Assembly: GCF_006152065.1 (NCBI RefSeq)
Contig: NZ_VDFW01000012.1
Location: 62,001-126,000 of the forward strand
Source of the DNA: Amycolatopsis alkalitolerans
Lineage (GTDB): Bacteria; Actinomycetota; Actinomycetes; Mycobacteriales; Pseudonocardiaceae
Direction: 5' to 3'
Length of the DNA: 64,000 nucleotides
This document shows, in pieces, positions 1 to 31,648 of the stretch. Within the stretch, counting starts at the first letter, position 1. Every line of letters starts with the position of its first letter. Below the pieces are notes generated by a model. The model was given only the letters and a program-made list of their open reading frames with translations. It was not told the origin of the DNA and did no database searches. Made by a program: the position numbers and the translations under genes.

Positions 1-153
1 GCGCGCGGTTTCGGTCTCCACGAAGGGCTCCAGCCACAACATGCCACGAGACCCGTTGCGCACCACCGTCGCACCCTCGGCCGCGAACTCCTTCGCGACC
101 AGATCCGCGCCCACCGACCGCGCAGCCGAATCACCGGGGACGTAGACCTTCAT
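1..153 (-). CDS. fdsB: NAD-dependent formate dehydrogenase beta subunit, N-terminus (partial)
   Basis: Partial gene that runs off the left edge; the first 51 residues are visible, from an ATG at 153. The reading is MKVYVPGDSAARSVGADLVA and continues into a GSRGMLWLEP stretch, which matches the N-terminal thioredoxin-like region of FdsB/NuoF-type NADH-binding subunits. In the family this subunit carries FMN, NAD and an Fe4S4 cluster and passes formate electrons to NAD+ in the cytoplasm. Its ATG overlaps the TGA of fdsG (ATGA), so the two are translationally coupled. The catalytic molybdenum subunit would lie outside the window. The identity rests on a short stretch plus the fdsG neighbour. Confidence 0.8.
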   Translation of the reverse strand, partial: MKVYVPGDSAARSVGADLVAKEFAAEGATVVRNGSRGMLWLEPFVETETAR

Positions 154-635
154 GAAGCCGCCGTTTCCGTCGCGAGGACCGTGTCCAGCCGGGACGGGTC
201 CACCCGCCCGTACACCCTGCCGTTCACCTGCGCCGCCGGGCCGAGCGCACAGTTGCCCAGGCAGAACACCTGGTTCAGGGTGATCGACCTGTCCGCCGTG
301 GTCTGCCCCAGCTTGACGCCCAGTGCCTGCTCCGCGTGTGCCACCAGCTGCTCCGCGCCGACCGCCTGGCATGCTTCCGCGCGGCACAGGCGCACATCGG
401 TGCGCCCGCCAGGCTCGGACCGGAAATCGGAATAGAAGCTCACCACGCCGTGCACATCGGCGCGGGAGATGTTGAGCTCGGCGGCCAGCAGCGGGACGAT
501 CTCGTGGTCCACGCAGCCGAACTCGGCCTGGATCGCATGCAGGATCGGCAACAGCGCCCCCCGTTCACTGCGATACTCGGCGACGATGGCCCGCACCCGG
601 TCGATGACCGGCGGACCGCTCGCTTCGATTGCCAT
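150..635 (-). CDS. fdsG: NAD-dependent formate dehydrogenase gamma subunit (NuoE-like)
   Basis: 161-aa NuoE/FdsG-type protein that carries a [2Fe-2S] cluster in the diaphorase arm of soluble formate dehydrogenase. The four cluster cysteines are visible: Cys84 and Cys89 (CRAEAC), Cys125 and Cys129 (CLGNC). The fold start GALLPILHAIQAEFG is typical. I chose the ATG at 635 because family members begin close to this point and a purine-rich GGGAAG lies upstream; a longer reading from 866 runs into pabAB. The 100-bp gap upstream carries a LysR-type box (724-740). Oxidising formate to CO2 with NAD+ would be the exit step of the one-carbon pathway encoded further right. Confidence 0.9.
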   Translation of the reverse strand: MAIEASGPPVIDRVRAIVAEYRSERGALLPILHAIQAEFGCVDHEIVPLLAAELNISRADVHGVVSFYSDFRSEPGGRTDVRLCRAEACQAVGAEQLVAHAEQALGVKLGQTTADRSITLNQVFCLGNCALGPAAQVNGRVYGRVDPSRLDTVLATETAAS

Positions 636-723: not shown

Positions 724-2886
<2,163 letters not shown>

Positions 2887-3031
2887 TCACGCGCCACCCG
2901 CATGTAGCGACCGTACGGCATCACACCCGCGTTGCGTATTGACCATTTTTCACAACCTCATTGCCCGCCGTGATGGCCGGTATTTCGCAGCCGCGCCCAC
3001 CCGGATCCGTCGAACACAGGAGGTCCTGCTC

Positions 3032-3286
3032 GTGACACTCTTACAGCTGCGAACCTTCGTGTCGGTCCGCGCCGTCACGCACAACCTGCTGGCCACTCTC
3101 GAACTCGACCCGCACACGCTCACCATGCGGCCGGGCATCAGCGAGCGCGAGCACGTACCAAGGAAATCCGATGACCACCCGGAAGTAGTTTCCCGTACCA
3201 TTCTTTTCAGCGATCAGCCACTCCTGCTGCGCATGGGATTACTATGCAAACAAACGTCGAAGCACAAACCGCCGAAAACGGTGTGA
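3032..3286 (+). CDS. Possible small leader ORF of unknown function ahead of folP
   Basis: Within the 375-bp gap between pabAB and folP, a GTG at 3032 is preceded at the usual distance by a strong AGGAGG (3019-3024). The 84-codon frame begins MTLLQLRTFVSVRAVTHNLL and runs into folP by 43 bases in another frame. I recognise no family. The first ten residues recall a LysR N-terminus, but no helix-turn-helix follows. It may be a translated leader, a decayed regulator or chance. The rest of the gap shows nothing else that I recognise. Confidence 0.25.
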   Translation: MTLLQLRTFVSVRAVTHNLLATLELDPHTLTMRPGISEREHVPRKSDDHPEVVSRTILFSDQPLLLRMGLLCKQTSKHKPPKTV

Positions 3287-4116
3287 CCACGCTGCCCGAG
3301 CTGGATCGATGTGTCGTCATGGCAGTTGTCAACGTCACCCCGGACTCGTTTTCCGACGGTGGGCTTTTCTTCGAAACCAAAGCGGCGATAGCGCACGGGA
3401 TGGGGCTACTGAGGGCCGGGGCCGACATCATCGACGTCGGCGGAGAATCGACTCGGCCGGGCGCCGGCCGGGTCCCGGCCGACGAGGAATTGCGGCGAGT
3501 CCTCCCGGTCGTGTCGGAACTGTCGGCGGCGGGGGCGTCGGTCAGCATCGATACCACGCGAGCATGCGTGGCCGAGGCCGCGGTGGACGCCGGCGCACGG
3601 ATCGTCAACGACGTGAGCGGCGGCCTTGCCGATCCACTCATGCCCAGGTTCGTCGCACACGCCGACGTGCCCTACATCCTCATGCACTGGCGCGGCCCCA
3701 GCACGCAGATGCAGCGTAACGCGCACTACGGCGATGTCGTCACAGAAGTCGCGGCCGAGCTGCAGCAGCGGCTGTGCGCGGTCGTCGACGCCGGGGTTCG
3801 GGCTGACCAGATCGTGCTCGACCCGGGCCTGGGTTTCGCGAAGACGGCCGAACACAATTGGCGCCTTCTCGCCCACCTCGACGTGCTCAAGCAACTCGGT
3901 CGGCCGTTGCTGATCGGCGCGTCCCGCAAGTCGTTTCTCGGTGAGCTGCTCGCGGGCGAAGGCGGCGCGAAAACGCCGACCGACGAGCGAGACGCGGCAT
4001 CGGCCGCGGTGGCCGCGCTCGCTGCTGCTACCGGCGTCTGGGGCGTTCGTGCCCACACCGTGCCCCTCACCCTCGATGCCGTGCGGGTAGCCGCTGCGCT
4101 GCGTGCCGCCGCCTGA
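3244..4116 (+). CDS. folP: Dihydropteroate synthase
   Basis: 290-aa TIM-barrel enzyme that joins PABA to 6-hydroxymethyl-dihydropterin diphosphate to give dihydropteroate. Motifs are intact: NVTPDSFSDGG at about 30-40, DVGGESTRPGA at about 65-75, the SIDTTR strand, and GASRKSFLG near the C-terminal third. It is transcribed away from pabAB and towards folD, with a 44-bp convergent gap. No folE, folB or folK is next to it, so this looks like an accessory copy serving the local one-carbon system rather than the housekeeping folate operon (inference). The start ATG gives the usual family length. Confidence 0.93.
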   Translation: MQTNVEAQTAENGVTTLPELDRCVVMAVVNVTPDSFSDGGLFFETKAAIAHGMGLLRAGADIIDVGGESTRPGAGRVPADEELRRVLPVVSELSAAGASVSIDTTRACVAEAAVDAGARIVNDVSGGLADPLMPRFVAHADVPYILMHWRGPSTQMQRNAHYGDVVTEVAAELQQRLCAVVDAGVRADQIVLDPGLGFAKTAEHNWRLLAHLDVLKQLGRPLLIGASRKSFLGELLAGEGGAKTPTDERDAASAAVAALAAATGVWGVRAHTVPLTLDAVRVAAALRAAA

Positions 4117-4160
4117 TCAGCGGACGCGTGCGATGGCCCGGCACGTGCCGCCCCACCGGA

Positions 4161-5117
4161 TCAACCGGCGAGGCGGTGTGGCCTCTGCTCGGGTTCCGTG
4201 CCGGGCAACCCGGCGGCGGCCCGCGCCGCCGCTACCGTGTTCCGCAGCAGCCACACGTCGGTGATCGGGCCGACGCCGCCAGGAACCGGCGAGATCGCCT
4301 CGGCTTTCGCCGCCACCGTGGCGAAGTCGAGGTCACCGACCAGCCGGACCTTGCCGGTTCGCGGTTCTTCGACCGGGTTGATCCCCACGTCGATCGCGAT
4401 CACACCCGGCTTGACGTGTTCACCGGTCACCAGTCCCGGCATCCCGGCCGCGATGATGAGGATGTCCGCCTGAGCCGTGTGTGAGTAGAGCAGCCCGGCC
4501 TTGAAGCTGTGCACATCGCACGACAGCACTGTGGCGTTCCGGTTCAGGCCGAGGATGACCGCCGGCTTGCCCACGTTGTTCGAACGGCCGACCAGCACCA
4601 TGTTGCTCCGCGCGTACACCTCCTGCGGATCGCGCCCGGATTCTCGCAGGTACCGATCGAGCATGTGAAAGGCCGAGGCAGGAGTCGACGGGATGTAGCG
4701 AGGGCGGTCGAGGGTGAGCAGGCCGGCGTTCACCGGATGCACTGCTTCGATGTCCTTCACCGGATCCAGCAGCCGGTACAGCGCGACCTCCGACACCTGC
4801 CGCGGCAACGGGCGGAGCACCAGTACCCCGGACACTCGGGGATCGGCGTCGAGCTTCCCGACCGCCGCGAGCGCGTCCGCCTCCGTCACATTCTCCGGCA
4901 ACGCCTCGCACACATAGTGGCAGCCGAGCTTACCGGCGAGCCCGCGCAGGCGGCGTTCATAAGCCCGTGCCGCGTAACCCTCCCCGGCCATGACCGTCGC
5001 AAGACCGGGGCGGATTCCCTGCCGTGCGAGCTCCGCGATTTCCACGGCGAGCTGATCCCGGAGGTCTGCCGCGTAGTGCTCGCCGTCGATGATTTTTGCG
5101 ACCACGTCATCCACCAT
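4161..5117 (-). CDS. folD: FolD-type methylene-THF dehydrogenase, cyclohydrolase residues altered
   Basis: 318-aa FolD family protein. The NADP-binding half is well kept: VGRSNNVGKPA near 177-187 and PGGVGPITDVW near the C-terminus. In the catalytic half, eye alignment to human MTHFD1 and E. coli FolD shows the essential cyclohydrolase lysine (YxxxK, Lys56 human) replaced by Leu57. The Gln of VQLPLP is replaced by Leu101, and the Asp of KDVDG by Glu124. Methylene-THF dehydrogenase activity is expected to remain, while methenyl-THF hydrolysis is probably lost. That step is likely done by fchA, whose stop overlaps this start by 11 bp. I chose the ATG at 5117; the upstream reading extends into fchA. 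Last gene of the fhs-fchA-folD operon. Confidence 0.88.
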   Translation of the reverse strand: MVDDVVAKIIDGEHYAADLRDQLAVEIAELARQGIRPGLATVMAGEGYAARAYERRLRGLAGKLGCHYVCEALPENVTEADALAAVGKLDADPRVSGVLVLRPLPRQVSEVALYRLLDPVKDIEAVHPVNAGLLTLDRPRYIPSTPASAFHMLDRYLRESGRDPQEVYARSNMVLVGRSNNVGKPAVILGLNRNATVLSCDVHSFKAGLLYSHTAQADILIIAAGMPGLVTGEHVKPGVIAIDVGINPVEEPRTGKVRLVGDLDFATVAAKAEAISPVPGGVGPITDVWLLRNTVAAARAAAGLPGTEPEQRPHRLAG

Positions 5118-5715
5118 TCTCGGAGACGGCACGGCCGGCCGAGTCGGCGGCGAGGCGGACCAGACACTCCGCCCCGTCAACCAGCTCGTCGCCCAGCTTG
5201 CCGGTTTTCGCGTTGATCTGGACCAGCGTCGCCGCCGATCGCACCGCGGCTTCCGCGAGGCAGACGGCGGTGAACGCGTCGCCGCGCAGATGCGCATTGC
5301 CGCCCTCGGCCAGGCGTGCCGCGAGCTTCACCACGCTCGCGGCGATATCCGCGATTTCCAGCGGGACCTCCGCCGCCCACTGCAGAGCCGACCGGATTCG
5401 CTCCCGCCTTTCCTCCAGGTCGTCGGTTCGGGGCAGCGCATACGCTTCGAGGACCGCGCGGTACGCCTCGGCGTCGGCGTCGGCGAGGCGGATTACCCGG
5501 TCGCGTAACCGGTCGGCTTCCCGTGCCAGGTCAACGGCGTCCCTCAGCACGTCCTCGGAATAGCGCGCGGCCATAGCGGTGAGGCCGGCCGCGGTGGCCG
5601 CCGTCATCGCGGCGGCGGCACCACCGCCGGGGGCCGGCTGCTTCGCCGCGATGGCGGACAGGAACTTCGCGACGCTGAGCGCGCGGAACGAGGAGCTCAC
5701 TGCCGCACCATCCAT
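5107..5715 (-). CDS. fchA: Methenyl-THF cyclohydrolase of the FTCD_C/FchA family
   Basis: 202-aa all-helical protein of the formiminotransferase-cyclodeaminase C-terminal family. The early PAPGGGAAAAM loop and the RDAVDLAREADRLRDRVIRLADADAEAY helix are typical. In clostridial and methylotroph clusters this family (FchA/Fch) supplies 5,10-methenyl-THF cyclohydrolase activity; in histidine degradation it is formimino-THF cyclodeaminase. No histidine-degradation gene is nearby, and the flanking genes are fhs and a folD that seems to lack cyclohydrolase residues, so the cyclohydrolase role is favoured. The ATG at 5715 is 4 bp after the fhs stop; the upstream extension is just antisense to the fhs end. 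Confidence 0.85.
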   Translation of the reverse strand: MDGAAVSSSFRALSVAKFLSAIAAKQPAPGGGAAAAMTAATAAGLTAMAARYSEDVLRDAVDLAREADRLRDRVIRLADADAEAYRAVLEAYALPRTDDLEERRERIRSALQWAAEVPLEIADIAASVVKLAARLAEGGNAHLRGDAFTAVCLAEAAVRSAATLVQINAKTGKLGDELVDGAECLVRLAADSAGRAVSENGG

Positions 5716-5719
5716 GAGC

Positions 5720-7417
5720 TCATGACAACCCCACGATCTCGGCATCGGCGTCGAGATCGATGTGCGCGGCGGCCGGATCCGCGCTGAGTCCGGGCATGGT
5801 CCGCATTTCGCCGCAGATCGGGTACACGAAACCGGCGCCCACCGAGGCTCGGACCTCGCGGACCGGGAGCGTCCATCCCGTCGGGGCACCTTTCAGCTTC
5901 GGGTTCGAGGAAATGGACAGGTGTGTCTTCGCCATGCAGATCGGGAGATGGCTGAAGCCGGCACCTTCATAGGTATTGAGCTGACGGGACGCGTTGTCCG
6001 AGTAGTCGACCCCAGCGGCGCCGTACACCAGTGTGGCAATGGTGTCGATCTTCTCCCGCAGGCTGGCGTTGTCGGGGTAGAGGAACCTGAAGTCATTGGG
6101 TTGCTCGGCTGCCTCCGCCACCGCCGACGCGAGTTCCGCCGCGCCACGCCCGCCATCGGAAAAGTGAGTCGATACGGCGGCGCGAGCACCCATCTCCTCG
6201 GCGATTTCGCGGATGATGCGGTGCTCGGAGGGGTGATCCGTGGGGAACGCGTTGATCGCGACCACCGGTGCGACACCGTGCAGCCGCACGTTCTCAATCT
6301 GCTTGCGCAGGTTCGCCGCCCCCGCGGCGACGTCCTCCGGATTCTCCTCCAGCAGCTCGTCGGGCAACGGCTTGCCGGCCACTATCCGGTACTTGCCCGA
6401 GTGCGCCTTGAGCGCACGAACGGTGGCGACCAGTACCGCGACGTCCGGCTTCAGGCCGGAGGCACGGCATTTGATGTTGAAGAACCGCTCGGCGCCCATG
6501 TCGGCACCGAAGCCGGCTTCGGTGATGAGGAAGTCGCCGCACCGGATACCGATGAGATCGGCCACCACGGACGAGTTACCCGTCGCAATGTTCCCAAAAG
6601 GTCCACAGTGGACCAGAACCGGAGTGTTCTCCAACGTTTGCAGCAGGTTGGGCTTGATCGCCTCGCGCAGCAGCACGGTCATCGATCCCGCGGCCTGCAG
6701 CTGCTCGGCCGTCACCGGCTTCCGGTCGCCGGTGTAACCGACCACGATCTGGCCCAGCTTGGCGCGCAGATCGGCCAGCGATCGCGCGAGCGCCAGCGTC
6801 GCCATCACCTCCGAGGCGGCCGTAATGTCGAAACCGGTCTGCCGCGGCAGGCCGTCTGCCGACGAGCCGAGCCCGATCACGATGTTCCGCAGCGCCCGGT
6901 CGTTGACGTCCAGGACGCGCCGCCACGTGATGTTGTGCATGTCGAAATCGAGCTCGTTGCCCTGGTACAGATGATTGTCGAGCATCGCGGCGAGTAGGTT
7001 GTGTGCCGCCGTGACGGCGTGCATATCCCCGGTCAGGTGCAGGTTGAGCAGCTCCATCGGCACAACCTGGCTGTACCCGCCACCCGCCGCGCCGCCCTTG
7101 ATCCCGAAGGTCGGCCCCATCGACGGCTGCCGGATCGCCACCACCGCGCGCTTGCCGATATGCCCGAATCCCTGACCCAGCCCCACCGTCGTAGTGGTCT
7201 TACCCTCGCCCAGCGGCGTCGGCGTGATAGCGGTGACGACTACGTATTTCGCCGGCCTCTCCCCCGCCAGCTCGTCGGCCGCCTCCGTTTTGATTTTCAC
7301 CACGCTCTCGCCGTAGCGCTCCAGCAGATGGCTACCGATGCCCATCTCGTCCGCGATATCCTCTATCGGCTTCAGCACAGCATTACGGGCGATTTCCAGG
7401 TCGCTCGGGAATGGCAT
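5720..7417 (-). CDS. fhs: Formate-tetrahydrofolate ligase
   Basis: 565-aa formyl-THF synthetase, cytosolic, interconverting formate, THF and ATP with 10-formyl-THF, ADP and phosphate. The nucleotide-binding loop PTPLGEGKTTT lies at about 66-76, and PSMGPTFGIKGGAAGGGYSQV follows at about 100. Full family length (usual 550-560). A clear GAGGAG precedes the ATG at 7417. First gene of fhs-fchA-folD, with a 150-bp leader that holds two inverted repeats and a LysR-type box shared with two other operons. The reaction is reversible, so it could either assimilate formate or release it with ATP gain. The paired formate dehydrogenase suggests the release direction (inference). Confidence 0.95.
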   Translation of the reverse strand: MPFPSDLEIARNAVLKPIEDIADEMGIGSHLLERYGESVVKIKTEAADELAGERPAKYVVVTAITPTPLGEGKTTTTVGLGQGFGHIGKRAVVAIRQPSMGPTFGIKGGAAGGGYSQVVPMELLNLHLTGDMHAVTAAHNLLAAMLDNHLYQGNELDFDMHNITWRRVLDVNDRALRNIVIGLGSSADGLPRQTGFDITAASEVMATLALARSLADLRAKLGQIVVGYTGDRKPVTAEQLQAAGSMTVLLREAIKPNLLQTLENTPVLVHCGPFGNIATGNSSVVADLIGIRCGDFLITEAGFGADMGAERFFNIKCRASGLKPDVAVLVATVRALKAHSGKYRIVAGKPLPDELLEENPEDVAAGAANLRKQIENVRLHGVAPVVAINAFPTDHPSEHRIIREIAEEMGARAAVSTHFSDGGRGAAELASAVAEAAEQPNDFRFLYPDNASLREKIDTIATLVYGAAGVDYSDNASRQLNTYEGAGFSHLPICMAKTHLSISSNPKLKGAPTGWTLPVREVRASVGAGFVYPICGEMRTMPGLSADPAAAHIDLDADAEIVGLS

Positions 7418-7468
7418 TCTGAGCTCCTCACAATAACCGAGATTAGCCGGCCGCTGAAACGCTTGCCA

Positions 7469-7505
7469 GGACCGAACGGTCCGGTACTATCCTGCCAAAC
7501 AGGAT
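7469..7505 (-). promoter_or_regulatory. Two inverted repeats in the fhs leader
   Basis: GGACCG-AA-CGGTCC (7469-7482) is followed by ATCCTG-N5-CAGGAT (7489-7505). Both are perfect and lie 52-88 bp before the fhs ATG. They could be protein operators or a folded 5' leader. The second repeat is nested within GTACT...AGTAC (7484-7517). I see no match to a known THF riboswitch. Confidence 0.35.
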
Positions 7506-7539
7506 TGCGGCAGTACTAGTCAGCGATTTCGAATTACCC

Positions 7540-7556
7540 TATAGTCGCGTCTTATG
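7540..7556 (-). promoter_or_regulatory. LTTR-type box 2 (TATAG-N7-TTATG), upstream of fhs
   Basis: The box reads TATAG TCGCGTC TTATG. It lies 124 bp before the fhs ATG and just past the lysR stop. Including flanks it shares CCCTATAGTC-N6-TATGTCCG with the box at 15740, that is 18 of 24 positions identical. Box 3 lies 125 bp before its own ATG. One arm has C to T (TTAT), so it is a slightly imperfect palindrome. Confidence 0.65.
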
Positions 7557-7568
7557 TCCGTGGCATGC

Positions 7569-8537
7569 TCACGCGGCGTCGACGCCCGCCAGTGAGCGTC
7601 CGGTCGTGTGGCGCGCCTGGAGATGCGTCGTCTCAGGTGCCTTCCGGCTGGCGATCGTCACGAGGATCTGCGCGGCCGGCGAGAGCTCCACGTTCCTCCG
7701 CCACGATGCCCGGAACTGACGGACGAGCCGGACACCGGCCAACGGCACTTGGACGAGTTCGCGGTTTTCCAGCTCACTTCGGACGCTCATCCGGCTCAGC
7801 ACGGCCGCGCCGGCACCCGCCAGTACCGTGCCCTTGACGGCGTTCGTGGAACCGAGTTCGAGGTGGGGGTGCCCATCGTCCAGGCCGCCGAGTGCTCGCT
7901 CGAGCGTCTCCCGCGTGCCCGACCCTCGTTCCCGCAGCACAAGCGGCACCTCGGTCAGCTCGGCGCGCGTGACGGGGGTGGTGCGCCCGGCCCAGGGATG
8001 GCCCGGCGCGACGACGACCACCAGCTCGTCGCCTCCGACGACCACCTGGGCAAGTCCGGAATGATCGCAGGGGTCCTCGACGAACCCGATGTCGATCTGT
8101 CCGGCGGCCACCTGCTCGACGACGTCGCGAGAATTCCGCACCTGCAGTTCGACGGCCATGTGCGGTAACCGCTCGCGCAGCTCGATCAGCCAGCACGGCA
8201 TGAGGTTGTCCGCCACGGTGAGGCTGGACACCAGCCGCAGCCTGCCGCGCTGGACATCGCGCAGGGCCGCCGTACCAGCGGCCAGCTTGTCCGCGGCTTC
8301 AACGACGCCGCGTGCCCATTGCGCCACCATCCGGCCGGACGGCGTGAGGCTGCACCCGGTGTAGGTGCGCTCCAGCAACCGCAGCCCGAGCCGGCGCTCG
8401 AGCGCCTGGATGCGGGTGCTCACGGTGGGTTGGGACATGGCATGGGCACGTGCCGCCTTGCTCAGGCTGCCCAGTCGTTCCACACACAGGAGCAGATCGA
8501 GATCGACCAGCTCGGGCACGCTAGGGGGCAAGATCAT
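7569..8537 (-). CDS. LysR-family transcriptional regulator (candidate one-carbon regulator)
   Basis: 322-aa LysR-type regulator. The N-terminal helix-turn-helix is clear (LLCVERLGSLSKAARAHAMSQPTVSTRIQALERRLG, about 15-50) and is followed by the effector domain with RGRLRLVSSLTVADNLMPCWL. The C-terminal half resembles CysB/CbbR-type binding domains in general layout, and the ligand is not predictable. Start ATG at 8537; the long upstream open frame is antisense to the next regulator. It lies directly upstream of, and in the same direction as, fhs, with 151 bp between. That position makes it the prime candidate to bind the boxes at 724, 7540 and 15740 (inference). Confidence 0.9.
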   Translation of the reverse strand: MILPPSVPELVDLDLLLCVERLGSLSKAARAHAMSQPTVSTRIQALERRLGLRLLERTYTGCSLTPSGRMVAQWARGVVEAADKLAAGTAALRDVQRGRLRLVSSLTVADNLMPCWLIELRERLPHMAVELQVRNSRDVVEQVAAGQIDIGFVEDPCDHSGLAQVVVGGDELVVVVAPGHPWAGRTTPVTRAELTEVPLVLRERGSGTRETLERALGGLDDGHPHLELGSTNAVKGTVLAGAGAAVLSRMSVRSELENRELVQVPLAGVRLVRQFRASWRRNVELSPAAQILVTIASRKAPETTHLQARHTTGRSLAGVDAA

Positions 8538-9611: not shown

Positions 9612-10376
9612 TCACGAGCGGAACGCGGACGCCAGCGCGGACAGGCCGGCGAGCCACACGGTTGCCAGCAAGGCGAATCGGAACCTGTGACCCGGCATCC
9701 TGTGCACGCTCCACGCGCCCGCCACGCCACCGAGCGCGCCCAGCGGCATCAAGATCAGGCCGTGCACGACGAACCCGGTGTCGGCCCGTGTCATTCCGGT
9801 CGCGAGGCCGACCAGATAGCTGGTGAGGTTGAAGGCGGCAAGCGCGGCCCGCCCCTCGACCACCCGCCAGCGCTGCATCGAGACGACGAGCGCGAGCGGC
9901 GGTCCGCCCATGCTGGTGGCCCCGTTGAGGAAACCACCGAACAATCCGGCGACCGCGGTCGCGGTCGCCTCGTGCCGGACCGGCCGCGGAGGGCTGATCA
10001 ACCAGGTCACCGCGGTCACCAATGCCGTCGCCGCGATGAAGACCGTCAGCACCCGCGGTGCGGCGTGTGAGAGCACCACGACCCCGACGGGGGTTCCCGC
10101 CACGGCACCGCCGATCAGCCACCCGGAACGCCCCGGCCTGAGGCCCTTCCGTGTTTCCACGAGGACGGCCGCGCTCAGGATCGCGCCGAGCACCAGCGAA
10201 AGCATGACCACCTGATGCGGCTGGCGGACGAGCAGCACCAGCAACGGGGTCGACACCACGGCGAACCCCATCCCGGTGAAGCCCTGGACGTACCCTGCCA
10301 CGAGGACGATCAGGGCCGCCAGGAACCAGATCGCCGGTCCCCCGCCCGCCAGCGCGTCAGACGCCAGAATGACCAT
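9612..10376 (-). CDS. TauE/SafE-family membrane permease
   Basis: 254-aa integral membrane protein with about eight hydrophobic segments and the family repeat GxVQGFTGMGFA...P in the first helix pair and GGFLNGATSMGGPP in the second. Family members move sulfite, sulfoacetate or other small anions and organic acids. I prefer the ATG at 10376 over a TTG at 10415. Last of six minus-strand genes starting at 15616, all with gaps of 31-108 bp, so it may export a small anion made by that pathway, such as formate or sulfite (inference). Confidence 0.85.
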   Translation of the reverse strand: MVILASDALAGGGPAIWFLAALIVLVAGYVQGFTGMGFAVVSTPLLVLLVRQPHQVVMLSLVLGAILSAAVLVETRKGLRPGRSGWLIGGAVAGTPVGVVVLSHAAPRVLTVFIAATALVTAVTWLISPPRPVRHEATATAVAGLFGGFLNGATSMGGPPLALVVSMQRWRVVEGRAALAAFNLTSYLVGLATGMTRADTGFVVHGLILMPLGALGGVAGAWSVHRMPGHRFRFALLATVWLAGLSALASAFRS

Positions 10377-10415
10377 TCGCCCCTCCGGCCATCGCGGCGG
10401 CAACACCGGGACCAA

Positions 10416-11714
10416 TCACTCCCGGGACCGGACCTCGATCCGCCCGGCGCGGACTCGGACCTCGAACACCGGCTGCGGCGAGAACGCCGGCCCGCGGACG
10501 ACGCCGCCATCACTCAGGCGGAACTTCGATTCATGCCACGGGCAGCTGACGACGCCGTCACAGACCTGTCCCAGCGACAGCGGCGCACCCGCGTGACTGC
10601 AGGCATTGTGAATGGCCGAGATACGGCCATCGCGGTTCCGATGCAGCAGCACCGTCTTCTCACCGGCAGGCACGGCCAGCGTCCGGCCTGGCGCGCCGTC
10701 GAGTTCCGTTTCGAGTGCCGTCGGGAACCACTGCGCCGGTCCTGGTGGCCACGCGGTGTGGTTGACCATCGTGCCGTGGCCGAACACCAGGTGTCCACCG
10801 AGGAACGCGGCGCCGACGGTGACCGCGAGGCCGACTGCCGACAGCACGACGGCCACTGTTCGCGCGCCGGCGAAATAGTAGGTCGCGGACGACGCGGCTT
10901 CGACCAGGAGCGCGGCGGTCATCAGCAGGCCGTGCATCAGACCGGCACGTCGTTCGTGTCCCTCGGCGACCGTCCAGTCGGCGACGCCGGTGAGGGCGGT
11001 GGCCAGCGCCGCCGCGACGCCGGCGACACCGAGGATGGCCGCCGGCTGAGGCTGGCCGATCAGGTACAGCAGCAGCGAGCTGATCCACAGCCCGATGGGG
11101 AGGTCGCTCAGCGCGGGGTGCAGCGCATGGCCGAACCAGCGGCCGTGCAACAGATCGAGCAGTCCCGTCCGCACGAGCCGTCTCCGCACGGGCACGAGAC
11201 CGGCGATCATGCGGTCGGCAGATTCCCGGAGCCAGTCCATCCGGTCCAGTTCGGCGGAAATCCTCGCGTGCCAGGGCAGGGCACGTTCCAGCGCCTCCTC
11301 ACGCACGCCCTCCCCGGCCTCCGGTTGGGTGCTCTCCGTTGCTCCGGGCGGGGCTCCGCCCGGAGCAACGGCCACAAGCACCTTCCCGTCTTCCACCCGG
11401 ACCGCGTATGTAGGTGCCGCGCGGTCGGCAGGTGGTCCCAGCACTTCGCCCGACCGGACGTCGAAGGCGCTGTAGTGGAGGGGGCAGTACACGACGTTGT
11501 CACACAAGGCGCCCTCATCGAGGTTCGCGCGCTCGTGCGTACACACGCCGCCGATCGCGTAGAACCGGCCGTCCACTCTCGCCAGCAGAACGCGCTCACC
11601 ACCGATCTCGTAACCTGCCATCTGCCCGTCGGCGAAATCTTCGGCAGCGCCGACCTCCACGAATTCATCGAGGTCGGCATGCCCGGCCGCGGACTGCTCC
11701 CTGCTCGTCGTCAC
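10416..11714 (-). CDS. Double-Rieske membrane protein with central DUF2231 domain
   Basis: 432-aa protein with two complete Rieske [2Fe-2S] sites. The first is Cys58-His60 (CTH) with Cys77-His80 (CPLH); the second is Cys372-His374 (CSH) with Cys391-His394 (CPWH). Between them is a DUF2231-like membrane domain (about 170-310) with four hydrophobic segments and the HPALSDLPIGLW start. Single-Rieske/DUF2231 fusions are known, while two clusters flanking the membrane domain look uncommon. A perfect 16-bp-arm palindrome lies exactly in the linker after the first Rieske domain, as if two genes had been joined there. GTG start at 11714. The likely role is electron transfer between a soluble redox partner and the membrane or an oxygenase; the partner is unknown. 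Confidence 0.85.
   Translation of the reverse strand: MTTSREQSAAGHADLDEFVEVGAAEDFADGQMAGYEIGGERVLLARVDGRFYAIGGVCTHERANLDEGALCDNVVYCPLHYSAFDVRSGEVLGPPADRAAPTYAVRVEDGKVLVAVAPGGAPPGATESTQPEAGEGVREEALERALPWHARISAELDRMDWLRESADRMIAGLVPVRRRLVRTGLLDLLHGRWFGHALHPALSDLPIGLWISSLLLYLIGQPQPAAILGVAGVAAALATALTGVADWTVAEGHERRAGLMHGLLMTAALLVEAASSATYYFAGARTVAVVLSAVGLAVTVGAAFLGGHLVFGHGTMVNHTAWPPGPAQWFPTALETELDGAPGRTLAVPAGEKTVLLHRNRDGRISAIHNACSHAGAPLSLGQVCDGVVSCPWHESKFRLSDGGVVRGPAFSPQPVFEVRVRAGRIEVRSRE
11336..11371. repeat. Perfect 16-bp-arm palindrome inside the double-Rieske gene
   Basis: The left arm is CCGTTGCTCCGGGCGG, the loop GGCT, and the right arm the exact reverse complement. It encodes residues about 115-126, a Pro/Gly/Ala-rich linker (APGGAPPGA). 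It resembles GC-rich intergenic palindromes of actinomycetes, but here it is in frame within a gene, between two domains. Confidence 0.85.
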
Positions 11715-11755
11715 CGTCTCACCATCCCTGTGCGGGTCCTTGCTCCCCGTGCCGG

Positions 11756-12643
11756 TTACCGGCTCGGTGTCCAGGCGACGAGATCGCAGAACTTCCGCCG
11801 CTCCTCGTCCGACATCGACACCGTGTGCTCCGGACCGGGGTACACGCGATCCCGCACCTCGTCACGGTATTGCCGGAAGACGTCCTCGAACACTGGGATC
11901 AGATCCTGATAGATCTTCGAATGCCGCGGCGTGTGTTCCTCGTAGATGTGGAACAGGTCGCTGGTGATGATGTGCACCCCGTCGGACCGGGCGCCGGCAC
12001 CCAGCGACACCACCGGCACCGGAAGCTCCTCCGCCAGGTAGGCGGCGACTTCGTCCGTGGTGACCTCGCAGAGGATTGAGAAACATCCGGCGTCCACCAT
12101 CGCGAACGCGTCATCAACGAGTTCCTTCGCACGATCGGCGGTCTTACCCTGTGCCCGGAAGCCGCCGAGCTGCGGCATCCGCATCGGCGTGATCCCGATG
12201 TGCCCCTGCACGGGTATCCCGGCCTGCACGATCGCCTCGATGTGTTTGGCGTGATGGCGGTTGCCCTCACACTTCATGACTTCCGCACCCGCTTCGGCGA
12301 CGAACCGGCCGGCGTTCTCGACCGCCTGCTGCGGCGAGACGTGGAAGCTCCAGTACGGCATGTCGACCATGCGCATCCCGTACTTCGATCCCCGCGACAC
12401 GGCTTTCGCCATGCTCATCACCTCGTCGAACGTGACCGAGGTCGTGTCGGGGTGCCCGAAGAGGACCATCCCGCCGGTGTCGGAGACACACAGGATGTCG
12501 ACTCCACCGATCCGGTCGGCGATCACGGCCGACCGGTAGTCGTAGATCGCCATCTGGACGATCGGCTCACCCTTCTTCTTCTTTTCCAGAAGGGACGGAA
12601 TGGTGACCTTCTTCTGCTTCTTCGGTGGCTGATCCTGCGCCAT
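11756..12643 (-). CDS. PanB-like (ketopantoate hydroxymethyltransferase family) enzyme, divergent
   Basis: 295-aa TIM-barrel protein of the PanB/PEP-mutase superfamily. Canonical PanB moves a hydroxymethyl group between 5,10-methylene-THF and 2-ketoisovalerate. By eye, the metal and substrate residues are kept: Asp55 (VSDT), Asp94 (VDMPY), Glu126 (MKCEGN), His148 (GHIGITP) and GxGAG at 215. The region of the catalytic glutamate (LECVP in E. coli) reads LCEVT here, offset by one. The Lys-rich N-terminus, IYDYRSAV and the C-terminal extension also differ. No panC or panD is near. The neighbours are MFS, Rieske and amidohydrolase genes, and a regulatory box is shared with fhs, so a catabolic THF-linked hydroxymethyl transfer is proposed. 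ATG at 12643 with AAGGAG. Confidence 0.8.
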   Translation of the reverse strand: MAQDQPPKKQKKVTIPSLLEKKKKGEPIVQMAIYDYRSAVIADRIGGVDILCVSDTGGMVLFGHPDTTSVTFDEVMSMAKAVSRGSKYGMRMVDMPYWSFHVSPQQAVENAGRFVAEAGAEVMKCEGNRHHAKHIEAIVQAGIPVQGHIGITPMRMPQLGGFRAQGKTADRAKELVDDAFAMVDAGCFSILCEVTTDEVAAYLAEELPVPVVSLGAGARSDGVHIITSDLFHIYEEHTPRHSKIYQDLIPVFEDVFRQYRDEVRDRVYPGPEHTVSMSDEERRKFCDLVAWTPSR

Positions 12644-12678
12644 CGTGGATCTCCTTGTGATCGAGCCGGAAATCCTGA

Positions 12679-14004
12679 CTAGGACTCCAGCGTTTCCTTG
12701 CGAACCAGCTGCGTACTGGCGGTCCCGCCCGCGACGTCGATGGAGATTTCTTCCAGTTCCTTCCTCGCGGTCTCGGGTCCCATCAGGTACCCGATGATCG
12801 TCAGTACCCACAGTCCGGTGAAGGCCAGGTACGGCACCGTGGGACCGTAGACGGAGATCGCCCAGCCGACGACGAAGGGCGCGGCGATCGAGACCACGCG
12901 GCCACCGCCGACCGCGATCCCGAAACCCGTCCCTCGCAGTGAGGTCGGGAACAGCTCGGCGATGTAGGTGTCGCCCACACCCCACAGCCAGCCGAGCATC
13001 GCGATCGACAGCCCACCGAAGACGAGGTAGGAAGACAGGCCGGTCGCCGTGGCACCCAGGGCGGTCGCGCCCATCATGATTACCGCGCCCAGAATCGCGG
13101 AAGGCTTGCGGCCCAGGGCGTCGGCCAGCCAGGTACCGACGTAGCAGAAGAGGAACTGGACTACGTAGAACAGCATGGCGTACTTGATCGCACCCGCGGC
13201 GCTCACATGGAACTTCTGCACCATGAACGTCGTGAGGAACACCGTCATACCCCAGTAGCCCACCGCGTTCGCGGTGTAGATCAGCCACCCGATGACGATG
13301 CGCTTCTTCGCGCCGGGTACCCGCCAGATACTCACCTTGGCACGCTTGTTCCCCTTCGCCTTCGCCTCGAGCTTCGCGACGGTGTATCGCGTGGATTCAC
13401 GCAGCCGCCGGCGAATCAGGAAGAGCGCCAGGGACGGAACGATCGCCAGGATGAAAGCCCATTGCCAGCCCCATCGCGGGACGACGAGAAGAGCGGTGCC
13501 GGCCGCCAGGATGTAACCGGCTGAGTACAGCGAGAAGATTATGCCGCCGGTACCGACCGCTCGGTGCCTGGCCGGCCACATCTCCGCGGTATAAGGGGCG
13601 CCGACCGCGAGCTCGCCCGCCCCGCCTACGCCGGTGAGGAAGCGAAGGGCGGTGAACACCGGTACATTCGTCGTCAGCCCACCAAGAGCGGTGCTGGCGC
13701 CGTAGACGAGGATCGAGACGCCAAGGGTGTCCTTCCGTCCCCACCTGTCCGCGGCGATCCCGAACCCGATCGTCCCGATCGTATAACCCACAAGGAAGAT
13801 CGAGCCGATCGTGCCGAGGGCGCTCAGGCTCACGTGCAACGTATCCTTTATCGCGGGGAGCACCAGGCTGTAGATGTTCACCGCGTACGCGTCGAACCCA
13901 TATCCCAGGCCCGCCGCCACCGCCACCAGCAGTGCTTGCTTGAAGGTGACCTTTTCTTTCGCGAAATCTCGTAAACGGTGCGATTCAGCATCGCTGCTTT
14001 TCAT
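12679..14004 (-). CDS. MFS transporter (organic-acid/sugar-porter type)
   Basis: About 441 aa with twelve predicted membrane segments. It has the MFS loop GIAADRWGRKDTLG between helices 2 and 3 and LADALGRKPSAI in the second half. The FDAYAVNIYSLVLPAIKD start resembles aromatic-acid and niacin-type symporters. The ATG at 14004 has GGAG nine bases upstream and is preferred over a GTG at 14013. It lies between the Rieske gene (108 bp away) and the PanB-like gene (35 bp). It probably imports the growth substrate of this operon; the chemical identity cannot be read from sequence. Confidence 0.88.
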   Translation of the reverse strand: MKSSDAESHRLRDFAKEKVTFKQALLVAVAAGLGYGFDAYAVNIYSLVLPAIKDTLHVSLSALGTIGSIFLVGYTIGTIGFGIAADRWGRKDTLGVSILVYGASTALGGLTTNVPVFTALRFLTGVGGAGELAVGAPYTAEMWPARHRAVGTGGIIFSLYSAGYILAAGTALLVVPRWGWQWAFILAIVPSLALFLIRRRLRESTRYTVAKLEAKAKGNKRAKVSIWRVPGAKKRIVIGWLIYTANAVGYWGMTVFLTTFMVQKFHVSAAGAIKYAMLFYVVQFLFCYVGTWLADALGRKPSAILGAVIMMGATALGATATGLSSYLVFGGLSIAMLGWLWGVGDTYIAELFPTSLRGTGFGIAVGGGRVVSIAAPFVVGWAISVYGPTVPYLAFTGLWVLTIIGYLMGPETARKELEEISIDVAGGTASTQLVRKETLES

Positions 14005-14112
14005 GACGGACACTCCACATGTTCGTCTTGCATATACCCACGACCAGGTAACAGATCCCCCTTTCCCTCGCCCGACTCGCGCATCGACGGTAGCGCCGGC
14101 GGACGACGCCGA

Positions 14113-14472
14113 TCAGGCTTGCAGTTGCACGACGATCTGCCCATCCTCCTCGAAGACCGGGAAAGTGGGCACCGCGCGCCCCGGATCGAATACCGTGCAA
14201 CCGGTCCGGATGTCGTATTCGTAGCCGTGCCAGGGACATTTGAGCACCTCGCGACCAGGCTCAAGCTGGTACTCGCCGACTTCCTTGGTGGTCGCGTGGT
14301 GCTCGTAAAGCCGACCGTACTCGAGCGGCCCGCCCTGGTGCAGGCACTTCGCCGCGAGTGCGTGCAGACTCCCGTCCTCGCCGCGAACCACGACAACCCG
14401 GATCGGCCCCAGCTGCACCTGCCGCATCTCACCACTGTCCAACTCGGACACGGGACAAACCACCTGCTTCAT
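14113..14472 (-). CDS. Rieske [2Fe-2S] protein with long inter-motif spacer
   Basis: 119-aa soluble Rieske protein. The ligands are Cys43-His45 (CLH) and Cys79-His82 (CPWH). The 33-residue spacer between the pairs is about twice that of ordinary Rieske ferredoxins and holds a charged insert (YEHHATTKEVGEY). ATG at 14472 with GGGAGA upstream. It is the second gene of the operon led by the amidohydrolase. It may feed electrons to an unseen oxygenase or pair with the double-Rieske membrane protein; alternatively it may be an oxygenase fragment, since no catalytic domain is fused. Confidence 0.88.
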   Translation of the reverse strand: MKQVVCPVSELDSGEMRQVQLGPIRVVVVRGEDGSLHALAAKCLHQGGPLEYGRLYEHHATTKEVGEYQLEPGREVLKCPWHGYEYDIRTGCTVFDPGRAVPTFPVFEEDGQIVVQLQA

Positions 14473-14503
14473 CGCAGATCTCCCTTCTTCGCAGACACCG
14501 GCG

Positions 14504-15616
14504 TCACTGCCCCGCCGTACGCAGTGCGGGCATCTTCGCGTAGCCGTTCTGGGCGTTTTCCACGAAGATCTTCCGCTGAAGATCTTCAGAAAGTCCTTGC
14601 GGGAGCGCTTCGGTCGGCGAATCGAAATCCCAATGCGGGTAGTCGGTGGAGAAACAGAAGAGCTCGTCGGATTCACACCAGTCGATGAGGCGCATGAACT
14701 GCGTCAGGCTCATCTCCTCCGTCGGCTGAGTCGCGAATCGCACCTGCTGCCTGATGATGTCGCTGGGCATTCGCTTGACCCACGGCACCTCCGAACGAAG
14801 CTCCTTGTACTGCTGGTCGGCCCGGGACATCAGGTGCGGAACGTAGGTGAACCCACCCTCGATCATGAAGACCTTCAGCTCCGGGTGCTTGTCGAAGACG
14901 CCGTTGAAGATGAGGCTCACCAGTTCGGACATGAACACCTGCGGGACCAGGGTGTGCCACTCCACGAAGTAGCGGTGGAACCCCAGCGCGGTGGGCGCGT
15001 TCTCGCTGTGATGGAAGCCCAGAGCGAGATTGTTGCGCGCGATGGCCTCGTAGATCGGGTGGTAATAGGGGTCGCCGAACGCCTTGTCGGCGATGTACAA
15101 GATCGCCTGCACCATCTTCGGATGAGAGCCGATCCGATCGATCTCACGAGCGGCGCCGATGGGATCGTGCGCGTTGACGTGCACCGAGCCCAGCAGCCGA
15201 TCGTCCCGGCTCAGCCAGTCGGCGATCTGCCAGTCGTTGTAGGCGCTCATCAGGGCGGTCTTGAACTCCGCCCAGCCAGGCTGCAGGGCCGACGCGTCCA
15301 ACCAGCCGGTCAGCACCGCGTAGTCGATGTCGTGCTCATCGAGCAACTGCCGCCGGAGCAGATCGTAGTCCGAACCGCCGGGACGCCCGTCCGGAAGCTT
15401 CGCATCGAGCCGGTCGAGGCCTCCCGCCGCGTACTGGCTGTAGGGCAGCACGCGCTCGGGCTGCCAGCCGAAGTCGGTGATGTACTTCCGCCACATCGGC
15501 TCCAGATAGGGCACCAGTGCCTGCAGGTCGGCGCGCTCGTGCACGTCGACGTCAATGAGCTGGGACCTTTTTGCCGATGGTGACGAAACCACAGGCCTGA
15601 CGCTGACCTCGGTCAT
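14504..15616 (-). CDS. Amidohydrolase-2 (ACMSD-like) family metal-dependent hydrolase/decarboxylase
   Basis: 370-aa TIM-barrel protein of the amidohydrolase-related family. Family markers are the N-terminal IDVDVHE, FHHSEN at mid-length, HPELKVFMIEGG and the C-terminal STDYPHWDFDSP. Members include ACMSD, o-pyrocatechuate and vanillate-type decarboxylases and various C-C or C-N hydrolases; the reaction here is not predictable. ATG at 15616, RBS AAGGGA. First gene of the six-gene operon, with an LTTR-type box 125 bp upstream. Decarboxylation or ring-side-chain cleavage ahead of the PanB-like step is one possibility (inference). Confidence 0.82.
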   Translation of the reverse strand: MTEVSVRPVVSSPSAKRSQLIDVDVHERADLQALVPYLEPMWRKYITDFGWQPERVLPYSQYAAGGLDRLDAKLPDGRPGGSDYDLLRRQLLDEHDIDYAVLTGWLDASALQPGWAEFKTALMSAYNDWQIADWLSRDDRLLGSVHVNAHDPIGAAREIDRIGSHPKMVQAILYIADKAFGDPYYHPIYEAIARNNLALGFHHSENAPTALGFHRYFVEWHTLVPQVFMSELVSLIFNGVFDKHPELKVFMIEGGFTYVPHLMSRADQQYKELRSEVPWVKRMPSDIIRQQVRFATQPTEEMSLTQFMRLIDWCESDELFCFSTDYPHWDFDSPTEALPQGLSEDLQRKIFVENAQNGYAKMPALRTAGQ

Positions 15617-27054: not shown

Positions 27055-27795
27055 TTACGACCCGAGCCCCATGCCGCCGGAGACACCGAGCGTCTCCGCG
27101 GTGATGTACGAAGCCTCCGGGGAGGCGAGGAAGGCAACACCGGCCGCGATCTCCTGCGGCGAGCCGAGCCTGCCGAGCTGGGTCCCGGCGACCATGGCGG
27201 CGAGTAGCGCGGCGCCACGCTCCCCCCTGTCCCGGATGGCTTGCACCATCGGGGTTTCGGTGGGACCGGGCGCGACGCAGTTGGCGGTGATCGCGAACCT
27301 CGCGTTCTCCCGTGCGATGGACTTGGTGAACCCGATCAGCGCTGCCTTCGAGGTGGCGTACACGGCGTTGCCCTTGGCGCCGATGCGCCCGGCCTCCGAG
27401 GTCACCGTGACGATGCGGCCGTACCGGCGCGCCTGCATACCGGGCAGCACGGCCTGGGTGCAGGCCAGCACGCCTTCGACATTGACCGCCAGCGTCCGGC
27501 GCCAGCGCGCGGGCGGCACGTCGGTGAACCACCCGAAGTCGTCGATACCGGCGTTGTTGACCAGAACGTCGAACGGTTCACCGCCCAGTGACTGGTGCAC
27601 GGCCGTGGGGTCGGTGACGTCGAGCGTCACAGCGGTCCCGCCGATGTCGGCGGCCGTCTTGGCCGCGCCGCCGGCGTCGACGTCGGCGGCAAGCACACGG
27701 GCGCCTTCGTCCGCGAGCCTGCGCGCGATCGCCGCCCCGATGCCGCTCCCGGCTCCGGTGACCACCGCCCGCTGCCCGGCGAAACGGCCGTTCAT
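27055..27795 (-). CDS. SDR-family oxidoreductase
   Basis: 246-aa classical SDR with TGAGSGIG, NNAG, catalytic Ser (TVTSEAG) and YATSK, and GGMGLGS at the C-terminus. ATG at 27795 overlaps the stop of the enoyl-CoA hydratase gene. It is a good candidate for the 3-hydroxyacyl-CoA dehydrogenase step between the hydratases and the thiolase, or for a dihydrodiol dehydrogenase acting after the nearby ring-hydroxylating oxygenase. Confidence 0.9.
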   Translation of the reverse strand: MNGRFAGQRAVVTGAGSGIGAAIARRLADEGARVLAADVDAGGAAKTAADIGGTAVTLDVTDPTAVHQSLGGEPFDVLVNNAGIDDFGWFTDVPPARWRRTLAVNVEGVLACTQAVLPGMQARRYGRIVTVTSEAGRIGAKGNAVYATSKAALIGFTKSIARENARFAITANCVAPGPTETPMVQAIRDRGERGAALLAAMVAGTQLGRLGSPQEIAAGVAFLASPEASYITAETLGVSGGMGLGS

Positions 27796-28595
27796 CGGCC
27801 GGTGAAGGTCGGTTCACGGCGCTCGATCACCGCGGCGAGCCCCTCCCGCGCGTCGGCGGTACCGGACAGCTCGGCGACGGTGCGCGCCTCGTCGGGCAGG
27901 GCATCTTCGATGGATCGGCCGACGCCGTCCCACATCAGGCGTTTGGTCGCCGCGATCGCCTTCGGGGCGCCGGCGGCGAGCGTGCGCGCCAGGTCGAGCG
28001 CCCGTTTGGCGAGCTCGGCGTCGGGCACGACCTCGGTGACGATGCCGAGTTCGTGCGCCTCCGCCGCGGTCAGGCGCGGGTTCGTCAGCACGATCCGCAT
28101 CGCCTCGCGGATCCCGACGATCCGGCTGAGGGTCACCGTCGTGCCGGCGTCGGGCGCCATTCCGACGGCGGTGGCCGCGGGCAGGAAGCGGGCGCGCTCC
28201 GTGGCGAGCACGAAGTCCGCCGCGCACACCAGGCCGAACCCGCCACCACCTGCCGCGAAGCCGTCCACGGCGGCGATCACGGGGGCGGGTAACCGGATCA
28301 TCGCCGAGACCGACACCTGCAACCACGAGGTGACCTCGCGGAGGTAGTCCGGCAGCCCGGGACCTTTCGACGCGAAGTCCCGCACGTCCCCGCCGCCGCT
28401 GAAATGCCTGCCGTTGCCGCTGATGATCAGCGCACGCAGGTCGGGCCGGCGGTGGCACGCCATCATGGCCTCGTAGAAGGAGCGCAGGAAACCGACGGAC
28501 ATGCCGTTGGCCGCGTCGGGCCGGTTCATCCGCAGGGTGGCCACGCCATCGGCGATATCGAGCAGGACGTCGCCGTCGGCGATCACGGCGGTCAT
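27792..28595 (-). CDS. Enoyl-CoA hydratase/isomerase family protein
   Basis: 267-aa crotonase-fold enzyme (GNGRHFSGGGDVRDFA; AAVDGFAAGGGGFGLVCAAD; LTAAEAHELGIVTEVV). It resembles the PaaG-like isomerase/hydratase group in length. ATG at 28595 overlaps the next stop. It probably hydrates or isomerises an unsaturated CoA ester formed after the PaaK-like ligase acts. Confidence 0.9.
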   Translation of the reverse strand: MTAVIADGDVLLDIADGVATLRMNRPDAANGMSVGFLRSFYEAMMACHRRPDLRALIISGNGRHFSGGGDVRDFASKGPGLPDYLREVTSWLQVSVSAMIRLPAPVIAAVDGFAAGGGGFGLVCAADFVLATERARFLPAATAVGMAPDAGTTVTLSRIVGIREAMRIVLTNPRLTAAEAHELGIVTEVVPDAELAKRALDLARTLAAGAPKAIAATKRLMWDGVGRSIEDALPDEARTVAELSGTADAREGLAAVIERREPTFTGR

Positions 28596-29353
28596 GTGGT
28601 CACCTTTCGTCGGGTGAAGGCGCCGAAGGCCGCCTGGCCCTCGGCCTCGAGATGGTCGAGTACGCGCGTGGTCTCGACCGGCAGCCCCGCGTCGAGGGGA
28701 TGTTCGAGGGCGCGATCGACGAGGAATTTGCTGTGCGCCATCGCGGCGGGCGGGTTGGCCACCAGCCGCTCGACGAGTGAGTCCACCTCCTCGTCGAACC
28801 GGCCGGGTTCGGCGGCCCGGTACGCCAGCCCCCACGCGACCGCTTGCGCGCCACTGATTTCGTCGCCGGTCAGGATCAGCCCCATCGCGCGCTGGCGTCC
28901 TACGATGCGCGGCAGGCGCTGGGTGCTTCCACCGCCGGGAACCTGGCCGAACCGGCTGTGGATGTCCGAGATCCGGGCGTCCGTGCGCACCACCGCGATG
29001 TCGCAGGCCTGCATCAGCTCGAAGCCACCGGCAACCGCGTGCCCGTGCACCGCGGCGACCACCGGAACCGGTGCCGACGTGATGGTGGTCAGCGCACGCC
29101 GGAACTCCGTGAACAGCTCGGCCATCGCGGCGCGGCCACGCGCGTGCAGGGTGGCGAGCGCGCCCACGTCCCCGCCGGCACAGAAGTCCGCACCCGCGCC
29201 GCGGATCACGATGACCCGGACCTCGCGCGCCAAGGCTTCGACCGCGGCGGCAAGCTCGCGCGCGAGCTCGACGGTGACCGCGTTGCGGGCTTGTGGCCGG
29301 TTCAGCAGGACGTGCCCGACTGATCCCTCGGTTCGCTGTCGGACCTGGGTCAC
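28592..29353 (-). CDS. Enoyl-CoA hydratase/isomerase family protein
   Basis: 253-aa second crotonase in the operon (LNRPQARNAVTVEL; ADFCAGGDVGALA; AVHGHAVAGGFELMQACDIA; RFGQVPGGGSTQRL). It has the usual Gly-rich oxyanion hole. GTG at 29353 overlaps the end of the CoA-ligase gene. The two crotonases share only general family features, so they likely perform different steps. Confidence 0.9.
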   Translation of the reverse strand: MTQVRQRTEGSVGHVLLNRPQARNAVTVELARELAAAVEALAREVRVIVIRGAGADFCAGGDVGALATLHARGRAAMAELFTEFRRALTTITSAPVPVVAAVHGHAVAGGFELMQACDIAVVRTDARISDIHSRFGQVPGGGSTQRLPRIVGRQRAMGLILTGDEISGAQAVAWGLAYRAAEPGRFDEEVDSLVERLVANPPAAMAHSKFLVDRALEHPLDAGLPVETTRVLDHLEAEGQAAFGAFTRRKVTT

Positions 29354-30726: not shown

Positions 30727-30761
30727 GGATGGCCCCTTTGCCAGTCAGTCTCAGTTAATCA

Positions 30762-30775
30762 ACCGATCGTTCGGA
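30762..30775 (-). promoter_or_regulatory. TetR-type operator, copy 1 (ACCGATCGTTCGGA)
   Basis: Matches the perfect palindrome at 31550 (ACCGAACGTTCGGT) in 12 of 14 positions. It lies between the divergent CoA-ligase operon and the tetR gene at 30892. Placement within the ligase promoter fits repression and autoregulation by that TetR. Confidence 0.65.
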
Positions 30776-30891
30776 TAGTAGACTGACATCGGCCGCCCGA
30801 TTCCGTCAAGGCACAAAAGCGGAACCGGGGGCCGCGACTATCGTTGACCGGTGGGCGCCGGACCCGTCGGCGCCGAACGAGGAGGTAAGCG

Positions 30892-31503: not shown

Positions 31504-31549
31504 GCCGCCGACCGCTCGCCTGCCACTGTTGCCACACCCCTTGAAATGA

Positions 31550-31563
31550 ACCGAACGTTCGGT
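31550..31563 (+). promoter_or_regulatory. TetR-type operator, copy 2 (perfect palindrome ACCGAACGTTCGGT)
   Basis: A 14-bp perfect palindrome about 86 bp before the ring-hydroxylating oxygenase alpha start, in the 145-bp gap after tetR. It shares 12 of 14 bases with the site upstream of the CoA-ligase operon. Confidence 0.75.
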
Positions 31564-31648
31564 AATGATGGGAGAGTCGGAGGCAGCGCGACTGCCCGGC
31601 GCCACGTCTTGGTGATGCCCTCCCCGGCACCGCTCGAAGGAGATGCTG

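Follow-up and report, generated by a model that had tools for sequence, protein, structure and literature searches.

The window analysed here, a 64,000-nucleotide stretch of contig NZ_VDFW01000012.1 of Amycolatopsis alkalitolerans, contains a six-gene operon that includes PanB2, a paralogue within the PanB family of tetrahydrofolate (THF) hydroxymethyltransferases. Judged from its sequence, the operon stands an even chance of being a module for the catabolism of methanesulfonate (MSA). The role of PanB2 as the enzyme which would move a one-carbon (C1) unit onto THF in sulfonate catabolism is well supported by genomic context; that hydroxymethanesulfonate (HMS) itself is the donor, and that the amidohydrolase-related dinuclear oxygenase (ARO) of the operon acts as MSA monooxygenase (MSAMO), we infer. 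Two undescribed enzymes may accordingly be encoded: a PanB-family HMS:THF hydroxymethyltransferase, cleaving the C-S bond with no free formaldehyde, and, in ARO, a second, unrelated MSAMO. We hold this pair possible, at somewhat below even chances.

All the components named by the original prediction (a PanB-family protein, an amidohydrolase, two Rieske proteins, an importer and an exporter) are present on the minus strand, with at most about 110 bp between neighbouring genes. MSA would enter through the MFS protein (12679-14004/14013, PF07690), similar to aromatic acid/H+ symporters. The small Rieske [2Fe-2S] ferredoxin (14113-14472; PF00355, E 8.6e-17) would feed electrons to ARO (14504-15616; Amidohydro_2, PF04909), which would hydroxylate the MSA methyl group to HMS, standing in for MsmABCD, the Rieske oxygenase of Alphaproteobacteria. 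PanB2 (11756-12643; PF02548, E 2.1e-81) would join to THF either the hydroxymethyl carbon of HMS or the formaldehyde with which HMS equilibrates, giving 5,10-methylene-THF and sulfite; this step is deduced from the context of the gene and from its kept catalytic residues. Sulfite would leave through a TauE/SafE-family exporter (9612-10376/10415; PF01925, E 1.5e-26). The sixth product, a membrane protein with two Rieske domains (10416-11714), probably serves electron transfer: Rieske scores above cut-off twice, DUF2231 slightly below it (E 5.5e-05), and the protein is kept in all four Pseudonocardiaceae PanB2 loci, the window counted. FolD, FchA and Fhs would then turn methylene-THF into formate, gaining ATP, and Fds would oxidise formate to CO2.

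PanB2 belongs to the PanB family (273.6 bits for PF02548, the gathering score being 28.7), and forms a distinct subfamily within it. It is not the sole PanB of its genome, in line with the original prediction: contig 14 encodes another, with a higher score (363.9 bits, against 276 for PanB2). A further PanB is present in 13 out of 17 PanB2 genomes; none was found in the other four (G646, G647, G648, G652), whose source loci are titled as metagenome-assembled genomes (MAGs). In a tree built from 18 PanB2 rows and as many rows of other PanB, all PanB2 lie on one side of a branch with 100/100 support and a stem of 1.89, and are not grouped with canonical PanB. The nearest row outside the subfamily, L007 (G182, 41% identity), comes from a genome of the window's own family. 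A plain PanB role was rejected, given the second PanB and the separate tree group.

The subfamily spans two phyla, Actinomycetota and Pseudomonadota, and is rare: out of 249 genomes from the window's family four have it (at least 83% identity; three further matches, at 40-41%, are left out of the count), as do 2 of 396 genomes of a phylum sample, the window's own included, and 3 of 385 sampled Alphaproteobacteria (G650, G870, G960). In a plasmid search, all 647 records were below 60% identity. All 18 PanB2 rows keep Escherichia coli (Ec) D45, D84, K112, E114, H136 and E181, which we take to be catalytic residues and metal ligands. All 18 also share the changes Ec L42C, G44S, S46T, L81R, V111M, V179L, G201S, I202L, Q211V and I212H, which lie near catalytic positions in the sequence, in stretches that presumably are barrel strands.

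The complete set of PanB catalytic residues would also suit an enzyme running in the PanB direction, and joining methylene-THF to a 2-oxo acid to give a hydroxymethyl acid for assimilation. A BhcA-like aminotransferase beside FdsA, left of the window, and a neighbour of PanB2 in L018, which by eye resembles a MocR-type regulator containing an aminotransferase portion, point the same way. Against this stand the other PanB of those 13 genomes, the recurrence of sulfite and THF genes around PanB2, and its annotated neighbours, not all of them scanned, among which no panC or panE was found, as the original prediction had stated for the window. Assimilation by this route is thus very unlikely.

The company kept by PanB2 was analysed in 21 loci from 20 genomes (the window, L010-L023, L050-L052, L106, L112 and L116). 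In 13 of the 16 alphaproteobacterial loci MsmA is encoded on the same contig; the contigs of the three negative ones measure 14.3 kb (L014), 3.7 kb (L018) and 14.5 kb (L020), and SoxCD is encoded on two of these. Frequent neighbours of alphaproteobacterial PanB2 are SoxCD, TauE and MSA-type importers, and a TauE-family gene is present in 13 out of the 21 loci. In L013, an actinobacterial MAG locus, PanB2 precedes an ABC importer akin to that of msm clusters (49-60% identity). The spacer of the Rieske motif measures 26 residues in all 12 MsmA proteins read, out of 13 in PanB2 loci (the copy on contig 45 of G960 being outside this reading); the same length is given as constant for MsmA in PMC4433239. 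Among the 385 Alphaproteobacteria, MsmA at 53-88% identity occurs only in the three genomes with PanB2, the other three matches being at 38-40%. These comparisons point to a C1 sulfonate, most likely MSA, as substrate, rather than to the quaternary hydroxymethyl carbons or aromatic acids first suggested.

The originally proposed order of steps, hydroxymethyl transfer to THF followed by FolD, FchA, Fhs and Fds, fits well with the kept catalytic residues and with the position of fhs in another phylum: fhs is the next gene after PanB2, on the same strand, at five loci (L017, L050, L051, L052, L112) of four genomes, and at L017, L051 and L052, from two of these genomes, folD comes after fhs. Overall, fhs or folD is present in 10 of the 21 loci. 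This adjacency of THF genes would equally be explained if PanB2 were a folate counterpart of Fae, trapping on THF the free formaldehyde released by spontaneous sulfonate breakdown. The genomic evidence is the same for both, and Fae is absent from 15 of the 17 PanB2 genomes, the two positive ones being those of two Filomicrobium loci. THF and formaldehyde, however, combine without an enzyme, and the genes beside which PanB2 was encountered are msm or ARO ones, a weak argument, as methanol and methylamine genes were not systematically looked for. A formaldehyde trap is, on balance, rather improbable.

The MFS importer provides another connection between the operon and MSA. Its best family, aromatic acid/H+ symport, is matched with 147.8 bits. 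A quaternary carbon or an aromatic acid product as source of the hydroxymethyl group, as in the original prediction, would find support in this assignment; the score is, however, far under the curated cut-off of 418.55, and in two phyla PanB2 is surrounded by genes for sulfonates and sulfite, which makes such a source most improbable. An MFS protein 60% identical to that of the window is encoded near msmABCD in G1213 (L115), where no MsmEFGH genes were found in the stretches examined; loci of this type were chosen for their msm genes, and constitute a biased sample for the MFS link. A search of 72,556 plasmids is a less biased test: the top one of 832 records is pMNOD01 of Methylobacterium nodulans (38% identity, 201 bits), the next 11 best reaching at most 135 bits, and a distance of 1.3 kb separates this match from the one MsmA of the plasmid collection with more than 60% identity (83%). 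Also part of the M. nodulans cluster are TauE, genes for formate dehydrogenase and a molybdopterin oxidoreductase with 33% identity to SoxC; no PanB2 is found in the 26 kb examined.

A second PF04909 protein appears where PanB2 is missing. Sixteen genomes with msm clusters were compared, within the stretches examined: 12 have PanB2 and none of these has the protein, which is present in all four without PanB2 (G1229, G1251, G1213 and M. nodulans; clusters at 80% identity or above). Relative to the M. nodulans protein, its copies (L118:8136-8999, L108:12828-13673, L110:12693-13538 and L114:17350-18207) show 71-74% identity; as judged by eye they lack the usual N-terminal D-x-H motif; the closest solved structure is 3irs, uncharacterised, and PF04909 was scanned on the M. 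nodulans copy only. The pattern of either PanB2 or PF04909 fits with a need for an enzyme acting on the MSAMO product, and is no proof of it.

Some features of the msm clusters are recorded here in their own right. MsmA appears to be split in Puniceispirillum and two further genomes (L017:1932-4397 and 6696-7802; L050:7546-8667, with L085; L051:6733-7827; L052:6568-7659, with L093). The first protein (788-822 aa) retains the Rieske motif with its 26-residue spacer and lacks the SEFYHDxMH motif; Pfam confirmed its reductase part for L017 alone. The second (364-374 aa) retains SEFYHDxMH and lacks the Rieske motif. Such a divided oxygenase alpha subunit would be unusual. A protein of about 250-280 aa recurs in msm clusters, M. 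nodulans included (L016:6506-7564, L021:7474-8304, L118:7319-8065 and others), matching neither Pfam nor NCBIfam families in L016 and no Pfam family in L118, and a GldA/GldFG-like ABC pair recurs beside msm transporter genes (L016:13598-17205, L022:5432-8790). In L050, molybdopterin, Fe4S4 and DmsC-like subunits (1900-6499), possibly of a SoeABC-type sulfite dehydrogenase, separate MsmC from the second MsmA-like gene.

ARO had been taken for a hydrolase, a role which was rejected: its best relatives are dinuclear oxygenases and their metal ligands are kept. The closest solved relative is 8sm9 (E 1.1e-114, 50% identity), with 8sm8 and 8sm7 also matching; identity to AibH2 and SfbO is 38-39%, and all six AibH2 metal ligands are present (D24, H26, H202, E253, D325, H328). 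Of the 249 family genomes, the four that encode PanB2 are also those with orthologues at 78% identity or above; one more contains a relative at 50%, and in it PanB2 has no match. A small Rieske gene flanks ARO in all four Pseudonocardiaceae loci, the window counted; such a neighbour is the means by which AROs are sought in PMC10811679. When 10 of the 12 alphaproteobacterial PanB2 genomes then known were searched, an ARO relative at 45% identity turned up in G655, and in the rest there was no match at 1e-40. In the window's genome, no MsmA was found at 1e-60, the best matches being 26-33% identical over parts of the query. A single-sequence AlphaFold model of ARO (mean pLDDT 36.6) was not used. 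The breakdown of 2-aminoisobutyrate (Aib) offers no parallel in the form of a THF hydroxymethyltransferase step, the section headings of the paper naming dehydrogenases. Elsewhere in the genome (C65:9427-11474, L048/L049), a tandem pair of ARO-like genes, 32% identical to the window ARO, possibly encodes a two-subunit enzyme like AibH1H2.

Several observations weigh against MSA as substrate, or against the functions assigned to PanB2 and ARO. Arg232 and Arg235 of the SfbO sulfate site correspond to His221 and Val224 in the window ARO, so that these residues lend no support to sulfonate binding; at other positions of the site W341 is kept and N67 is replaced by Q61, residue 280 being left out since its count mismatched the numbering of the paper. 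The absence of the two arginines would be in line with a different methylated sulfur compound in Pseudonocardiaceae, hydroxylated on its methyl group and stripped of HOCH2 by PanB2: dimethyl sulfide, dimethyl sulfone, methanesulfinate and a product of dimethyl disulfide are candidates, and Pseudonocardia asaccharolytica is among the PanB2 hosts. Relatives of both the MFS protein and PanB2 sit in msm clusters, which speaks for MSA instead, and we consider the other compounds unlikely.

The remaining adverse points concern the msm clusters. In three out of eight msm genomes, from a sample of one order, no PanB2 is present in the stretch around msm, indicating that it need not be required for MSA use. 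Some clusters contain GcvT genes, of another THF-transferase family, which could perform the transfer. The mutual exclusion of PanB2 and the second PF04909 protein may derive from a single event (support 63/96 in the MsmA tree), and hence represent one displacement, not four. Neither is found in the 23 kb examined of a Paraburkholderia graminis plasmid, not included among the 16 genomes, whose MsmA-like protein is just 52% identical although its spacer is 26. MSAMO is moreover described, in PMC4433239, as giving formaldehyde and sulfite directly. No literature on MSA use by Pseudonocardia was found, in searches that left subscription journals mostly outside. The same searches gave nothing linking HMS and THF, nor anything joining amidohydrolase, methanesulfonate, Rieske and monooxygenase; the 20 matches listed, of 25, for methanesulfonate and panB look unrelated by title.

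Downstream of the operon, a gap of 1.07 kb and a gene for a LysR-type regulator (7569-8537; PF00126 and PF03466) lie between TauE and fhs. The shared regulation with fhs-fchA-folD originally proposed finds no support in this arrangement, although fhs follows PanB2 in the four related genomes. The three genes are on the same minus strand, as is LysR: Fhs, formate-THF ligase (5720-7417; NF010030 above cut-off), FchA, methenyl-THF cyclohydrolase (5107-5715; PF04961, with NF045657 below cut-off), and FolD, methylene-THF dehydrogenase (4161-5117; PF00763 and PF02882). FdsG, the gamma subunit of the NAD-linked formate dehydrogenase (150-635, minus strand; NF004638 barely above cut-off), is inside the window, and FdsB/FdsA-like genes are just outside its left edge (L055); all steps are therefore encoded within about 20 kb, and not within the 15.6 kb first indicated. 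A scan for promoters and terminators yielded 3 promoter-like sites against 1.2 expected and 5 terminator-like ones against 5.8, from which nothing was inferred. The aminotransferase adjoining FdsA (L055:2137-3438) is near BhcA (578.6 bits; cut-off 650), and hints at a link with glyoxylate metabolism. At 27792-32300 of the window, enoyl-CoA hydratase-like and CoA-ligase-like genes, with a match similar to ring-hydroxylating oxygenases near 31694, perhaps belong to a separate aromatic pathway.

MSA, a natural sulfur compound, is described in PMC4433239 as highly relevant, in quantity, to the global cycling of sulfur. If the proposed pathway is true, an enzyme passing carbon directly to folate would explain the avoidance of free formaldehyde together with the ATP gain, the largely uncharacterised AROs would acquire a natural C1 substrate, and MSA use would reach actinobacteria which surveys based on msmA would miss.

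Three known systems may be compared with the operon. The original prediction knew of no described pathway with its gene set. Part of the set is in print: Table 1 of PMC4433239 lists PanB, TauE, GcvT, SoxC and SoxD beside msm in an MSA-growing Filomicrobium, and labels PanB 'C1-moiety transfer'. The association of PanB with msm is thus already published; a tested function does not accompany it in the passages concerned, and to this extent the claim stands. With the alphaproteobacterial msmABCD/msmEFGH clusters (PMC4433239) the window shares PanB2, present in many of them, a TauE-family exporter, LysR, sulfite and C1 handling and, in some, fhs and folD; in place of MsmABCD and MsmEFGH it features ARO, the Rieske ferredoxin and the MFS importer. 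With ketopantoate hydroxymethyltransferase PanB (1m3u, 1oy0), PanB2 has in common the PF02548 family and all six catalytic positions checked; it differs in its long-stemmed separate group, in the uniform changes near catalytic residues, in the higher-scoring PanB present in the same genome, and in annotated neighbours devoid of pantothenate genes. With the AROs AibH1H2, SfbO and 8sm9 (PMC7782822, PMC10811679), the window ARO shares PF04909, the six metal ligands and an adjacent small Rieske protein; unlike SfbO it lacks the sulfate-binding arginines and, unlike the two-subunit AibH1H2, it is represented by a single gene.

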